Assembly: GCF_040371545.1 (NCBI RefSeq)
Contig: NZ_AP029048.1
Location: 496,001 to 560,000 of the forward strand
DNA: 64,000 nucleotides
Direction of reading: 5' to 3'
DNA from: Synechococcus sp. M16CYN
GTDB taxonomy: Bacteria; Cyanobacteriota; Cyanobacteriia; PCC-6307; Cyanobiaceae
The notes beneath the pieces were generated by a model. That model saw only the letters and a list, made by a program, of their open reading frames with translations, did not search any database and was not told where the DNA came from. Made by a program: the position numbers and the translations under genes. Of the stretch, positions 2,183 through 55,290 are shown one piece after another (position 1 is the stretch's first letter; each line of letters begins with the position of its first letter).

Positions 2183-2228
2183 TTAGAAACCGAAAAACCA
2201 CCTTCTTGGTGGTTTTTTCGGTTTCTAA
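2183..2228 (+). terminator. Rho-independent terminator after tRNA-Arg
   Basis: An almost perfect inverted repeat (about 20 bp per arm with one extra T in the right arm) has core AACCACC/GGTGGTT and a five-base loop, followed by six T residues inside the arm. It begins one base after the tRNA 3' end, so it should end the tRNA transcript. The symmetry could also work from the other strand. Confidence 0.85.
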
Positions 2229-4813: not shown

Positions 4814-6073
4814 ATGGCTGAGAATGGTGTTGAGATTCTTTGTGTTGGCACTGAGCTGCTGCTTGGTGACATCCTCAACAGCAATGCACGTTGGATTGCT
4901 CAGAGGCTAGCCGGTTTAGGGCTGTCGCATTTTCGTCAGAGCGTGGTAGGTGACAATACAGATAGGATTGTCGCCGCAGTACTAGAGGCAACTAAACGTT
5001 GTCGGATTTTGATTACAACCGGAGGCTTAGGGCCAACACCCGATGACCTAACCACTGCCGCTTTGGCCACAGCATTTGACACGTCCCTTGAAGAACGTTC
5101 AGAGCTTTGGCATGAGATTCAAGCCAAGCCGTCCGAAGAAAAACATATTTCCGCCCTGAGCGATGGCTCGCAGGTGCTGCTGCCTGCGGGTGCAGAAGTT
5201 CTTCCTAATCCTTTAGGTTCTGCTCCAGGGATGATTTGGTCCCCCGTATCAGATTTTACGATTCTCACTTTTCCCGGGGTTCCATCGGAGATGCGAGCAA
5301 TGTGGATAGAGACAGCAGAACCTTGGTTGCGTCGCAATGGCGGTGCCTCATCTGTTTTTATAAGTCGGAAACTTCGATTTAGCGGGATTGGCGAGTCTGA
5401 TTTGGTGGAACGGATAAGAGATCTGTTGGTATCGACAAATCCTACCGTGGCTCCTTATGCCTCGCTTGGTGATGTAACGCTAAGGCTAACGGCTTCCGGG
5501 ATCTCAACAATTCATGCTGAAGCCTTATTGTTACCTATGGAGACTGAGTTGCGCCAACGCACTGGTCGATTCTGCTATGGAAGTGATGAAGATACCTTGG
5601 CTTCTGTAGTGCTAGGGCTACTCAAGGAAGCTGGGCAAACCCTAGCCGTCGCCGAGTCATGTACAGGCGGCGCTCTCGGCGCTGCTCTCACAGCGGTGCC
5701 CGAATCTTCAATTTCATTTAATGGTGGAGTAATCGCTTACAGCAACACAGTAAAGCAGAAGCTTCTAGGAGTCCCTTCAATCTTATTTGATGAACACGGC
5801 GCCGTATCTGAGCCCGTAGTGACCCAGATGGTAGCAGGTCTTCGTTCTCAGTTTCGATCCGACTGGGGCATCGCTATTAGTGGTGTCGCCGGGCCAGAGG
5901 GTGGAACCGTAGAGAAGCCAGTTGGCATGGTGTATTTAGCGCTAGCGGGTCCGCAAGGCTGTGAAGCTTGGGTGCAACACTTTGGCTCTAGTCAAAGTCG
6001 ATCAGCGGTGCAACAGCTAAGTGTGATTCATGCACTGGACCGTCTTCGTTTGCACCTTCTCGCTCAGTCGTAA
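4814..6073 (+). CDS. cinA: CinA-like protein (nicotinamide-nucleotide amidase family)
   Basis: The two expected domains are present. An N-terminal molybdopterin-binding-like domain (about residues 5-170) includes [16 protein letters not shown] and [16 protein letters not shown]-terminal CinA amidase domain (about 255-415) includes [13 protein letters not shown] and [18 protein letters not shown]. Family members salvage nicotinamide mononucleotide in pyridine-nucleotide recycling, and the name comes from competence induction in other bacteria. Length of 419 aa is normal. The last codons and stop lie inside a 37-bp tandem duplication, which leaves the protein intact. Confidence 0.93.
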
Positions 6074-6123
6074 GGTCATCATTCCCTTGCACCTTCTCGC
6101 TCAGTCGTAAGGTCATCATTCCC
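6050..6123 (+). repeat. 37-bp tandem duplication across the cinA stop codon
   Basis: Two adjacent identical copies (6050-6086 and 6087-6123) contain the last eight codons of cinA, its TAA and the following bases. The first copy provides the true end of CinA; the second is a non-coding leftover that lengthens the cinA-leuC spacer. Identity is perfect over the unit as I read it, which suggests a recent slippage or unequal-recombination event. Confidence 0.95.
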
Positions 6124-6136
6124 TGCAGTCAAAGGA

Positions 6137-18513: not shown

Positions 18514-19241
18514 CGGTTTACCGCTATTAACGGAAAAGTTACGAGTCTGACTCGGGGAGCTCTACAACCATTATCACGCATTGGCCTCCTACTCAGATTT
18601 TCAGTACTTGCATCTATATCCCCGTTGCTTATCCTAATCTCGGCCGCACATGTTAGCAGGCGGCGACTGCAGGAGACTCTTTTTGCGGTTTCCTGCACTC
18701 TCGATCGTTGTAAACCGTTCTAACCATACCTGTTTTGAGTCAGATTTCCGCCTGACTGTCATAAAAGTCGAGCGCCTAATCGACTGCAGCCACTTTAAGG
18801 CTACAGTCGATTAGGCGCTGAATGTTTTGGATTTAGCCCAACAGCTTCTTTAACTCGTATTTCTGACGTTGCGGTGTGGAATCTAGGGAAAGTACATGCT
18901 CAGCGCCGAATAGCCGTTGACTGTCGTCTCGCCTAACTACTGCACGTTGTCATCGAAATAAACACCGCGAAGGAAAATTCAGCATGCTCGGCATAGACAA
19001 CAACTAAGTTCAACGCTTATAGGGCCTTAAGCTCACCGGAAAAAGGTGAGAATTGCCATTATGACCTTCATCGAACTAAAGCCAATATTGGGTCGCTTGT
19101 GACTCAAAAGCAAGTGCGTTACACCTCGTAACTATCCCGACATCACACTTCGAACACTATGGATAGTGTCCATCACCCCGTGAGGTGGCTTTACGCCGCT
19201 ACATTTTGAGGTATTCCGGGAATCTCTCGGCGTAGAATAAC
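18514..19241. other. 728-bp intergenic region between divergent ntcA and CobO-like gene
   Basis: No convincing protein gene is present; the ORFs here are short and lack family features. It holds the 16-bp inverted repeat at 18771-18819 and a small hairpin at 19032-19050 (CTCACC/GGTGAG). As the shared upstream region of two divergent genes it should contain both promoters and could encode a small RNA, but I see no known RNA motif. Confidence 0.5.
18771..18819. repeat. 16-bp perfect inverted repeat upstream of ntcA
   Basis: The arms AGCGCCTAATCGACTG and its exact complement CAGTCGATTAGGCGCT flank a 17-base centre that itself contains AGCC/GGCT, extending the hairpin. No T-run follows on the + strand, so this is not a classic terminator. 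It could be an RNA hairpin, a protein-binding palindrome or a two-way terminator. Confidence 0.85.
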
Positions 19242-44007: not shown

Positions 44008-44835
44008 ATGCGCATCCGTTCCTTGCTGGTCATAGTGCTGGCGTTGTGTTTCACTTTTTTAACCACGGCTTGCAGCGGCAGTACCGTTGCAAGCCGTGGT
44101 GAGTCCAATGTGACCTATGATGACATTCGCAACACTGGTAAAGCTAACGATTGCCCTACAATCGGGGACTCAGCACGTGGTTCTATTCCTCTAACCATTG
44201 GCGGGAAATATCAGCTTCGCGAAATCTGTATGCATCCTGTACAGGTTTACGCAAAGGAAGAGCCCAAGAATATTCGTCAGAAAGCTGAATTTGTTGAAGG
44301 CAAAATTCTGACGCGTTATACGTCTAGCCTTGATGAGGTTTACGGTGACTTAACAGTAACTGAATCCGGTCTTCAGTTTCAAGAGAAAGGTGGGATCGAT
44401 TTCCAACCGATTACGGTGCTGGTTCCTGGCGGCGAAGAGTTTCCCTTCGCATTTTCTAGTAAGTCTTTGAATGCCAACGCTGATGGTACCGCCATCACCA
44501 CTAGTACCGATTTTGAAGGAACCTATCGCACTCCAAGTTATCGCACGAGTAATTTCATTGACCCCAAGGGTCGTGCTTTGACCACCGGTGTTCAGTATGC
44601 TCAGGGTCTGATTGCACTCGGAGGAGACGAAAAAGATCTTGAGAAGGACAATAACAAGCGATATATTGATGGCCTTGGTAACATGAGTATGTCAATAACC
44701 CGGGTAGATCCTGAGACCGGAGAGTTTGTTGGCGTCTTTACAGCGATTCAGCCATCCGATTCTGATATGGGTGGTCGTGAAGTGGTTGACATTAAGGTTA
44801 GTGGCGATTTGTATGGACGTTTAGAGGAGGTTTAA
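44008..44835 (+). CDS. psbO: Photosystem II manganese-stabilising protein PsbO
   Basis: PsbO is the extrinsic lumen protein that protects the manganese cluster. The chosen ATG gives a Sec-type signal peptide (MRIRSLLVIVLALCFTFL, cleavage region TTACSG) and then a mature chain. The chain has TYDDIRNTGKANDCPTI, ICMHPVQVYAKEE, EGTYRTPSYRTSNFIDPKGR and the C-terminal GDLYGRLEEV. The two cysteines of the mature chain (in NDCP and EICM) form the known disulfide. Length of 275 aa is normal. The last codons and stop lie inside a long inverted repeat. Confidence 0.96.
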   Translation: MRIRSLLVIVLALCFTFLTTACSGSTVASRGESNVTYDDIRNTGKANDCPTIGDSARGSIPLTIGGKYQLREICMHPVQVYAKEEPKNIRQKAEFVEGKILTRYTSSLDEVYGDLTVTESGLQFQEKGGIDFQPITVLVPGGEEFPFAFSSKSLNANADGTAITTSTDFEGTYRTPSYRTSNFIDPKGRALTTGVQYAQGLIALGGDEKDLEKDNNKRYIDGLGNMSMSITRVDPETGEFVGVFTAIQPSDSDMGGREVVDIKVSGDLYGRLEEV

Positions 44836-44909
44836 ATTCACATAAAGTCCCATACAAAGGGAATTATTACTACTTTCCCTTTGTATGGGACTTTATGTGA
44901 ATTTAAACC
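44829..44909. repeat. Perfect 35-bp inverted repeat at the end of psbO
   Basis: The left arm (44829-44863) begins in the penultimate psbO codon and includes its TAA. The right arm (44875-44909) is its exact complement, separated by an 11-base loop. The RNA would form a 35-bp hairpin right at the stop. There is no T-run, so it is unusual as an intrinsic terminator; it could stabilise the psbO mRNA 3' end or be processed by RNase III. Perfect arms suggest recent origin. Confidence 0.95.
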
Positions 44910-44944
44910 CAATCTATAATATTAGCCGGTCCTAATTAACTACC

Positions 44945-46117
44945 ATGACCGCCAGCGCCTTTACTCCAAGTCAACGGTCAGGGGTAATAGCCCCTCACGG
45001 AGGTGACTTGCTAAACCTAATGGTACCTGAGGCTAATCGCACTACAGTTAGTGCCTCAGCTACCAAATCATTGGAGTGCTCTGATCGCAGTGCCTGCGAT
45101 ATCGAACTCTTAATAATAGGCGCTTTTTCCCCGCTCCGTGGCTTTATGCATCAGGAAGACTATAACGCTGTTGTCGCAAGGAATCGTACCGTCTCTGGCC
45201 ACCTTTTTGGCCTGCCGATCGTGATGGATACAGATCAGGAAGATGTTATCGTAGGTGACAGACTTTTGCTTAACTACAAAGGTCAAGAGCTTGCTGTTCT
45301 TGATGTTGAGAGCAAATGGGAACCAGATAAAGTTATTGAGGCACAGAGTTGTTACGGTACTACATCACTCGAGCATCCTGCCACGCGCATGATTGCGATG
45401 GAGCGTAAACGCTTTTACTTAGGTGGAACTTTAAAGGGTTTGTCACTACCGAAACGTGTATTTCCATGCAAAACCCCCGCTGAAGTTCGTGCTGGTCTAC
45501 CAAGCGGTGAAGACGTAGTAGCTTTCCAATGCCGTAATCCCATTCACCGCGCCCACTATGAACTGCTCACCCGTGCGCTTCATGCTCCAAATGTGAGCAA
45601 GAACGCAGTGGTGCTAGTTCACCCCACTTGTGGTCCAACACAACAAGATGATATACCAGGGGCTATGCGTTTTGAAACCTATGAACGCTTGGCTGCAGAA
45701 GTAGATAATGATCGGATTCACTGGGCTTACCTCCCTTATGCGATGCATATGGCAGGACCCCGGGAGGCATTGCAGCATATGATCATTCGCCGTAATTATG
45801 GTTGTACCCGCTTTATCATCGGGCGTGACATGGCGGGCTGTAAATCTTCCCTCAGCGGTAGCGATTTCTATGGGCCCTATGAGGCTCAGAATTTTGCCAA
45901 GGAATGCGCGCCAGAGCTTGCCATGGAAACGGTACCATCGTTGAATCTTGTTTACACAGATGAGGAAGGTTATGTCACCGCTGAGTACGCTGAAACTCAC
46001 CGGCTTCATGTTAAAAAACTGAGCGGTACCCAGTTTCGCAAGATGCTGCGCAGTGGTGAGGAAATCCCTGAGTGGTTTGCTTTTAAGAGTGTTGTTAAAG
46101 CTCTCCGCGCCCTATGA
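44945..46117 (+). CDS. sat: ATP sulfurylase (sulfate adenylyltransferase)
   Basis: Sat makes adenosine 5'-phosphosulfate from sulfate and ATP, the entry to sulfur assimilation. The 390-aa sequence shows the PUA-like N-terminal domain, the QxRNPxHxxH motif as QCRNPIHRAHYELLTRAL (near residue 198) and GRDMAGCKSSLSGSDFYGPY (near 296). The C-terminal SGTQFRKMLRSGEEIPEWF closes the fold. It is a monofunctional homomeric type. The start is ATG at 44945, 35 bp after the psbO hairpin. Confidence 0.97.
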   Translation: MTASAFTPSQRSGVIAPHGGDLLNLMVPEANRTTVSASATKSLECSDRSACDIELLIIGAFSPLRGFMHQEDYNAVVARNRTVSGHLFGLPIVMDTDQEDVIVGDRLLLNYKGQELAVLDVESKWEPDKVIEAQSCYGTTSLEHPATRMIAMERKRFYLGGTLKGLSLPKRVFPCKTPAEVRAGLPSGEDVVAFQCRNPIHRAHYELLTRALHAPNVSKNAVVLVHPTCGPTQQDDIPGAMRFETYERLAAEVDNDRIHWAYLPYAMHMAGPREALQHMIIRRNYGCTRFIIGRDMAGCKSSLSGSDFYGPYEAQNFAKECAPELAMETVPSLNLVYTDEEGYVTAEYAETHRLHVKKLSGTQFRKMLRSGEEIPEWFAFKSVVKALRAL

Positions 46118-50614: not shown

Positions 50615-51759
50615 AAAGGAAACAGAGTAGAAAAGTAAAAAAACCTCCGTCAGAAGACGGAGGTTTGGGAGGTTTCGGGTGATTCGGTTAATCGAAACCG
50701 GGCTGTCTACATTGACTTTAGATCAACCAATTGCAGGTGCCTGCAGAGCCACAGGAGTGGATTCGGCAGCTGCTAGATCCAGAGGGAAGTTGTGAGCGTT
50801 GCGCTCGTGCATTACTTCCATGCCAAGACCGGCACGATTCAACACATCGGCCCAAGTATTCAAGAGACGACCTTGACCATCAAGAATGGACTGGTTGAAG
50901 TTGAAACCATTCAGGTTGAAGGCCATGGTTGACACGCCAAGAGCGGTGAACCAGATGCCAACAACGGGCCAAGCAGCCAGGAAGAAGTGAAGGCTGCGGC
51001 TGTTATTGAAAGATGCGTACTGGAAGATCAGACGACCGAAGTAGCCGTGAGCAGCAACGATGTTGTAAGTCTCTTCCTCTTGGCCGAATTTATAGCCGTA
51101 GTTCTGGGACTCGCTTTCGGTCGTTTCACGCACCAAGGAGGAAGTCACCAGTGATCCGTGCATTGCGGAGAACAAGCTACCGCCGAAAACACCTGCAACA
51201 CCCAACATATGGAAGGGGTGCATCAGAATGTTGTGCTCTGCTTGGAACACCAACATGTAGTTGAAAGTTCCAGAAATGCCCAGGGGCATTGCATCTGAGA
51301 ATGAACCCTGACCGAAGGGGTAGACCAGGAACACTGCGGAAGCAGCAGCGACAGGAGCGCTGTAAGCAACACAGATCCAGGGGCGCATACCCAAGCGGTA
51401 GGACAGTTCCCACTCACGTCCCATATAGGCGTAAATGCCGATAAGGAAGTGGAAAACAACGAGCTGGAAAGGACCGCCGTTGTACAGCCACTCGTCGAGT
51501 GAGGCTGCTTCCCAAATGGGATAGAAGTGCAGGCCGATGGCGTTACTGGAAGGAACAACAGCACCGGAGATGATGTTGTTGCCGTACATCAAAGAGCCAG
51601 CGACAGGCTCACGGATGCCATCGATGTCAACCGGAGGTGCGGCAACAAAAGCGATGACAAAACAAATGGTGGCAGCCAACAGAGTTGGGATCATCAGTAC
51701 ACCAAACCAACCGACATACAGACGGTTATTGGTGGAAGTGACCCACTCACAGAAAGACT
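50615..51759 (-). repeat. psbA direct repeat, copy 1 (about 1,145 bp)
   Basis: This block covers codon ~15 of psbA to its stop, the 3' untranslated region and terminator. It is identical to 54146-55290 in every stretch I compared, including silent positions. The offset is a constant 3,531 bp. Identity ends sharply on both sides. Confidence 0.95.
50641..50666 (-). terminator. Terminator of psbA copy 1
   Basis: AAACCTCCGTC and GACGGAGGTTT form an 11-bp stem with a four-base loop. On the minus strand the stem is followed by a run of T residues, giving a classic intrinsic terminator 57 bp after the psbA stop. Confidence 0.9.
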
Positions 51760-54145: not shown

Positions 54146-55290
54146 AAAGGAAACAGAGTAGAAAAGTAAAAAAACCTCCGTCAGAAGACGGAGGTTTGGG
54201 AGGTTTCGGGTGATTCGGTTAATCGAAACCGGGCTGTCTACATTGACTTTAGATCAACCAATTGCAGGTGCCTGCAGAGCCACAGGAGTGGATTCGGCAG
54301 CTGCTAGATCCAGAGGGAAGTTGTGAGCGTTGCGCTCGTGCATTACTTCCATGCCAAGACCGGCACGATTCAACACATCGGCCCAAGTATTCAAGAGACG
54401 ACCTTGACCATCAAGAATGGACTGGTTGAAGTTGAAACCATTCAGGTTGAAGGCCATGGTTGACACGCCAAGAGCGGTGAACCAGATGCCAACAACGGGC
54501 CAAGCAGCCAGGAAGAAGTGAAGGCTGCGGCTGTTATTGAAAGATGCGTACTGGAAGATCAGACGACCGAAGTAGCCGTGAGCAGCAACGATGTTGTAAG
54601 TCTCTTCCTCTTGGCCGAATTTATAGCCGTAGTTCTGGGACTCGCTTTCGGTCGTTTCACGCACCAAGGAGGAAGTCACCAGTGATCCGTGCATTGCGGA
54701 GAACAAGCTACCGCCGAAAACACCTGCAACACCCAACATATGGAAGGGGTGCATCAGAATGTTGTGCTCTGCTTGGAACACCAACATGTAGTTGAAAGTT
54801 CCAGAAATGCCCAGGGGCATTGCATCTGAGAATGAACCCTGACCGAAGGGGTAGACCAGGAACACTGCGGAAGCAGCAGCGACAGGAGCGCTGTAAGCAA
54901 CACAGATCCAGGGGCGCATACCCAAGCGGTAGGACAGTTCCCACTCACGTCCCATATAGGCGTAAATGCCGATAAGGAAGTGGAAAACAACGAGCTGGAA
55001 AGGACCGCCGTTGTACAGCCACTCGTCGAGTGAGGCTGCTTCCCAAATGGGATAGAAGTGCAGGCCGATGGCGTTACTGGAAGGAACAACAGCACCGGAG
55101 ATGATGTTGTTGCCGTACATCAAAGAGCCAGCGACAGGCTCACGGATGCCATCGATGTCAACCGGAGGTGCGGCAACAAAAGCGATGACAAAACAAATGG
55201 TGGCAGCCAACAGAGTTGGGATCATCAGTACACCAAACCAACCGACATACAGACGGTTATTGGTGGAAGTGACCCACTCACAGAAAGACT
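54146..55290 (-). repeat. psbA direct repeat, copy 2 (about 1,145 bp)
   Basis: This is the partner of 50615-51759, in the same orientation and identical in every stretch compared. The boundaries fall just past the terminator on one side and at codon ~14 of psbA on the other. Confidence 0.95.
54172..54197 (-). terminator. Terminator of psbA copy 2
   Basis: Same 11-bp stem, four-base loop and T-run as at copy 1, included in the duplicated block. Confidence 0.9.

Follow-up and report, generated by a model that had tools for sequence, protein, structure and literature searches.

A perfect 35-bp hairpin at the psbO terminator site of Synechococcus sp. M16CYN and its probable origin by template switching

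In Synechococcus sp. M16CYN, the gene psbO ends inside a perfect inverted repeat with arms of 35 bp, which raises the question of how such a stem came to lie there and whether it serves the psbO mRNA. The M16CYN genome consists of two contigs of 1,940,073 and 17,326 bp. The window, i.e. the whole stretch of DNA that was analysed, spans 64 kb (G000:C1:496001-560000), and positions are counted within it unless another locus is named. The features of the psbO–sat region are the following:

44008..44835, + strand: psbO (PF01716), with its stop codon within the hairpin
44829..44863, + strand: left arm of the hairpin (GGTTTAAATTCACATAAAGTCCCATACAAAGGGAA), which starts with one base of a Glu codon and then has the final GTT and TAA codons of psbO
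44864..44874, + strand: hairpin loop of 11 nt (TTATTACTACT)
44875..44909, + strand: right arm of the hairpin; its inner part is CCCTTTGTATGGGACTTTATGTG where relatives read CCCCTTTTTTTTTGGGGCTGTGCGT (weak similarity, p about 0.14)
44912..44935, + strand: conserved pre-sat element, ATCTGTGAGAATCGCGCGGTC in relatives (clade IV) and ATCTATAATATTAGCCGGTC here
44945..46117, + strand: sat, ATP sulfurylase (PF01747, PF14306)

The two arms are exact inverted copies of each other, and the left one contains both the last GTT codon of psbO (44830-44832) and its TAA stop codon (44833-44835). The first-pass annotation had described a perfect 35-bp inverted repeat that includes the psbO stop codon, has an 11-nt loop and lacks a T-run; the arm coordinates and a terminator scan, which found no terminator-like site with a T-run in 44700-45100, confirm this description. 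Both arms are AT-rich, and the right arm is followed by CAATCTATAAT. Once mismatches are allowed, the pairing reaches 42 nt at 93%, and the RNA fold of the hairpin has an energy of -60.3 kcal/mol (z = -14 versus shuffles). About 1e-15 perfect 35-bp hairpins with a loop of up to 30 nt are expected in 64 kb, so that chance is excluded as an origin. The hairpin is the longest perfect one of the window, in which the runner-up measures 16 bp. No Rfam family matches it above the gathering score, and the sub-threshold matches are to long hairpins only (e.g. a microRNA model, 51.6 vs 100 bits). The pre-sat element begins 3 nt past the right arm and carries TATAAT at 44915-44920. Judged by its sequence, it could be the -10 region of the sat promoter; a scan for sigma-70 promoters detected no site with both hexamers.

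The psbO–sat spacer was compared across the genus Synechococcus, Cyanobium-like genomes and Prochlorococcus. Nearly all marine Synechococcus carry a GC-rich hairpin (e.g. GGGGGCttagGCCCCC) followed by a T-run between psbO and sat. This intrinsic terminator resembles the M16CYN structure in being a hairpin at the same place, but its stem is mostly 6-12 bp long, its loop mostly 4-7 nt, and it ends in a T-run, whereas M16CYN has a stem of 35 bp, a loop of 11 nt and no T-run. The spacer is 109 bp long in M16CYN and 99-119 bp in most marine Synechococcus. The palindrome therefore fills the place of the terminator at a nearly equal spacer length, which speaks for replacement and not for insertion. 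None of the relatives compared has a long stem in this spacer. In the Prochlorococcus loci (L071-L099), terminator stems are often lengthened by perfectly paired A- and T-runs to up to 18 bp, far exceeding those of Synechococcus.

Of the complete genomes, G006 (2,234,828 bp) and G014 (2,285,034 bp) are nearest to M16CYN; we take them to be CC9902-like and BL107-like, respectively. When the arms were tested for ancestry, the right arm showed a weak resemblance to the right flank of the ancestral sequence (p about 0.13-0.26), and no similarity to the ancestral flank was found for the left arm. Since neither arm aligns significantly with an ancestral flank, the event at psbO itself cannot be reconstructed. 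In the CC9902-like genome, the stop codon and the pre-sat element are joined by an outer 9-bp stem (TGATCGCTG/CAGCGATCA; p = 0.03), but pairing between the terminator flanks is not conserved across 30 spacers (mean z -0.22; p < 0.05 in four of the 30). A derivation of the inner arm from psbO coding sequence, in which TTTGTATGGACGTTTA resembles the right arm, was considered and rejected, the p-value being 0.03 at the psbO end and 0.2 over the whole of psbO.

The psbO hairpin is not the only one of its kind in the genome. The sample consisted of 861 kb of M16CYN (the window and 40 further stretches, 44% of the genome) and of 1.2 Mb from its free-living relatives. It contains 22 perfect hairpins of at least 15 bp in M16CYN, where composition predicts about 0.02-0.08, and four in the relatives, the longest of which measures 17 bp. 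Their stem lengths in M16CYN are 35, 35, 25, 23, 23, 22, 21, 20, 19 and 19 bp, followed by five stems of 17 bp, three of 16 bp and four of 15 bp. Seventeen of the 22 lie in the non-coding 28% of the sampled DNA (p = 3e-6). Non-coding DNA taken by itself gives 17 hairpins in 238 kb as against two in 192 kb of the relatives (p = 0.002), so the larger non-coding share of M16CYN is not the whole reason for the excess. The first-pass annotation had called long perfect stems rare; this holds for the relatives but not for M16CYN, which has another 35-bp hairpin and a further 20 of at least 15 bp in 861 kb. All of these hairpins have loops of 0-20 nt. A larger spacer (98 nt) separates the arms of just one additional inverted repeat of at least 17 bp, and no inverted repeats with a spacing of 101-5000 nt were found in the sample. 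The longer hairpins contain no mismatch or a single one, which implies that they are young, short-lived or held identical by repeated conversion. Arms of different hairpins are unrelated and have almost no 14-mers in common with the rest of the sample. Most of the long hairpins are located between divergent genes or far from gene ends. Terminators at gene ends, counted by a crude measure, come to 1-3% in all genomes, a count that carries no information here.

The second perfect 35-bp hairpin (L116:3817-3896, G000:C1 about 1413817-1413896) lies 106 nt behind a gene for a Pcb/IsiA-type antenna protein (TIGR03041). A 3.3-kb stretch surrounding glyQ and a cpeY-like gene (L108:11613-14904) holds three perfect hairpins of 21, 25 and 17 bp, possibly a cluster. 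Two other structures are found in the window, and the first of them is a plain terminator in the BL107-like genome and in one other relative:

2183..2228, + strand: terminator of a tRNA-Arg gene, its stem stretched outward past the T-run (TTAGAAACCG..CGGTTTCTAA)
18771..18819, no strand assigned: 16-bp perfect hairpin (21 bp with one mismatch) between divergent genes, a further representative of the genome-wide class

The hairpins in genes, where the reading frames are still open and long and the domains recognisable, can be aligned with orthologues. In chlB, 14-16 of the 20 positions of the right arm agree with the orthologues and 8-9 of 20 in the left arm; a short inverted repeat, TGGCTGT..ACAGCCA, is present at the centre in the relatives, one example of the ancestral seeds that can be seen. 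A glycosyltransferase gene gives a similar picture (right arm 12-13 of 15, left arm 7 of 15). The arm closer to the orthologues is the left one in cbiC (13 of 15, right arm 10 of 15) and in gmk (12 of 15, right arm 9 of 15), though in both genes the gap is modest, the arms measure 15 bp and the comparison is with one relative. Taken together, these alignments suggest that in all four genes one arm is ancestral and the other has been converted into an inverted copy of it without loss of the frame.

The hairpin behind psbO therefore probably arose by template switching (quasi-palindrome mutation), in one recent event or several. The first-pass annotation had offered a very recent template-switch product as one possibility, and this proposal is supported by the absence of the hairpin from all relatives, by the lack of any mismatch between its arms, by the existence of a genome-wide class and by the coding members of that class with their ancestral and rewritten arms. 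The stretched stem of the tRNA-Arg terminator fits this picture as well. In quasi-palindrome template switching, palindromes are perfected as one arm serves as the template for the other (PMC6357072). The psbO locus has both a perfect, short-loop inverted repeat with no counterpart in relatives and a pre-existing imperfect seed, the terminator hairpin that nearly all marine Synechococcus carry at this site. The nascent strand would fold back at the degenerating terminator hairpin, copy one flank onto the other and then return to its template. An imperfect inverted repeat would in this way become a perfect 35-bp palindrome that overwrites the spacer from the psbO stop codon to the upstream element of sat. 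For psbO, we infer these events at the replication fork.

A less likely account is that the stem was selected as an mRNA 3' element, having taken over from the intrinsic terminator as a stabiliser, an RNA polymerase barrier or an RNase III site for the abundant psbO mRNA and so keeping psbO and sat separate. It would fit the position of the hairpin, which sits exactly at the place of the terminator and leaves the pre-sat element intact. A perfect 35-bp duplex is a good substrate for RNase III, and the other 35-bp hairpin also stands behind a PSII-related and likely highly expressed gene, that of the Pcb/IsiA-type protein. Conservation, however, lends no support to the stabiliser or RNase III site that the earlier reading had suggested, given that no relative has a long stem and that pairing over the whole spacer is not conserved in the 30 spacers compared. 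Most long hairpins stand away from gene ends or between divergent genes, so taken together they do not form a 3' system, and without a T-run the psbO hairpin is not a standard intrinsic terminator. Its sequence and position are still consistent with a makeshift role: the stem may be a 3' barrier that slows the polymerase, protects the 3' end or is cut by RNase III. That both 35-bp hairpins follow PSII-related genes is, with two cases, a hint only. As such it would also fit template switching associated with transcription, which has been described for yeast (PMC3820800).

Amplification could in principle have created the hairpins as well, through template switching of phi29 polymerase in single-cell MDA that became fixed in the assembly, but this is improbable. 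The M16CYN genome is very probably that of CregCyn, which lives as a symbiont with the dinoflagellate Citharistes regius. CregCyn has a 1.94-Mbp chromosome and a 17-kbp plasmid and is sister to Synechococcus clade IV; for its sequencing, the DNA went through MDA (REPLI-g) and an S1 nuclease treatment, and the assembly drew on Illumina as well as Nanopore reads (PMC11150560). MDA does favour inverted chimeras, which are mostly single inversions with an intervening deletion, span up to kilobases and give a junction about every 22 kb of product (PMC1855051). In M16CYN, neither single inversions with a deletion, nor wide spacing, nor a distribution that is random with respect to genes was found. 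Instead, the psbO sequence returns in register to sat, the loops are of 0-20 nt, and inverted repeats spaced by 101-5000 nt are missing. The concentration in non-coding DNA is as expected under purifying selection and unlike a random artefact, although artefacts that favour AT-rich DNA could mimic some of it. Those hairpins that do lie in genes are found in long open frames with recognisable domains. The S1 treatment also speaks against an artefact, as does the presumed template, a host cell with many symbionts. An assembly artefact by a double switch at psbO is likewise disfavoured. A REP/MITE-type mobile palindrome inserted behind psbO, which the palindromic and intergenic nature of the hairpin might suggest, is hardly credible and is rejected, as the palindrome has no second copy in its own genome, in 33 congeners, in phages or in plasmids, the arms of the other hairpins are unrelated to it, and the unchanged spacer length means that nothing was inserted.

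If template switching made these hairpins, the question is why they abound in this genome. The genes for the large subunit of ExoVII (xseA) and for RecJ (recJ) are absent from M16CYN but present in all 18 other congeners that are at least 90% complete. ExoVII has a role like that of exonuclease I in aborting template switching. For exonuclease I of E. coli, this activity is reported in a paper that PMC6357072 cites. Loss of both genes is nevertheless rejected as a sufficient cause. A genus of the high-light Prochlorococcus type (g33) is also without recJ and xseA, as is Prochlorococcus MED4 (PMC551534, Table 3). Yet 400 kb of high-light-type Prochlorococcus, to which this hairpin sample was confined, with low-light Prochlorococcus and G111 outside it, contain no hairpin of at least 16 bp, whereas its non-coding DNA should hold about four at the M16CYN rate. 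Something else must therefore contribute, be it weak selection in the small population of a symbiont or the loss of further repair genes. SbcC and SbcD are missing across nearly the whole genus and for that reason cannot explain why only M16CYN is affected, so that SbcCD loss was rejected as the specific cause. Among the congeners, an SbcD that scores above the curated cut-off was found in G048 alone (L181, L185), where its gene adjoins an SbcC-like one. G111 and the genus g42 show another pattern, the loss of xseA alone. The hairpin excess most likely goes back to weak selection on the reduced genome of a symbiont, with the missing single-strand and hairpin nucleases (RecJ and ExoVII; SbcCD) probably helping. 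A stronger version is doubtful: that loss of RecJ and ExoVII on top of the absence of SbcCD made M16CYN a natural quasi-palindrome mutator, in which terminators and non-coding DNA are rewritten into long perfect palindromes and some hairpins, such as that of psbO, are recruited as new mRNA 3' ends.

Direct repeats are present in the sampled DNA too. An exact repeat of 1145 bp (window 50615-51759 and 54146-55290) comprises two identical psbA-like genes that flank a GAPDH-like gene and an acetyltransferase-like ORF and have one and the same short hairpin (AAACCTCCGTC..GACGGAGGTTT) behind them; it looks like ordinary psbA gene conversion. Tandem or near-tandem repeats with periods of 37, 30 and 117 bp are found at window 6050-6124, L118:8234 and L141:12567, respectively.

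Template switching at quasi-palindromes is so far known mostly from single reporter sites, and the literature searched contains no report of its action on this scale, with products of this length and with terminators as targets, in a single bacterial genome. A genome with dozens of fresh, long and independent events and with free-living sisters for comparison would allow its natural frequency to be asked. Such a genome would also bear on what restrains the process (exonucleases, selection or both) and on whether terminators are preferred seeds. The psbO case shows a way in which the terminator of a housekeeping gene can be overwritten in the course of genome decay.

The closest known system is quasi-palindrome mutation as described by the Ripley model and by the E. 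coli QP reporters of the Lovett laboratory (PMC6357072, PMC7202029). There, an imperfect repeat with a short loop is made perfect with one arm as the template, and likewise one arm is ancestral in the aligned coding hairpins of M16CYN. Laboratory quasi-palindromes, however, are about 18 bp long and occupy single sites, whereas those of M16CYN reach 35 bp and occur in dozens of places, terminators included. The palindromes in the coding sequences of nematomorph mitochondria (PMC6649704) are similar in that there are many unrelated perfect repeats and few imperfect ones, some of them in frame within genes, and template switching has been proposed for them. They are mitochondrial, coding and up to 284 bp long, while those described here are bacterial, mostly non-coding and up to 35 bp in the sample, and, unlike the nematomorph ones, could be compared with free-living sister genomes. 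In yeast genes, repeat arms were homogenised by template switching on single lineages, for example from a 5-bp to a 16-bp perfect repeat (PMC8604942), but these short repeats are scattered over population data and, unlike in M16CYN, form no genome-wide burst in one lineage. The mechanism is thus known in kind, and it is its scale, the length of its products and its targeting of terminators within one bacterial genome that are unusual.
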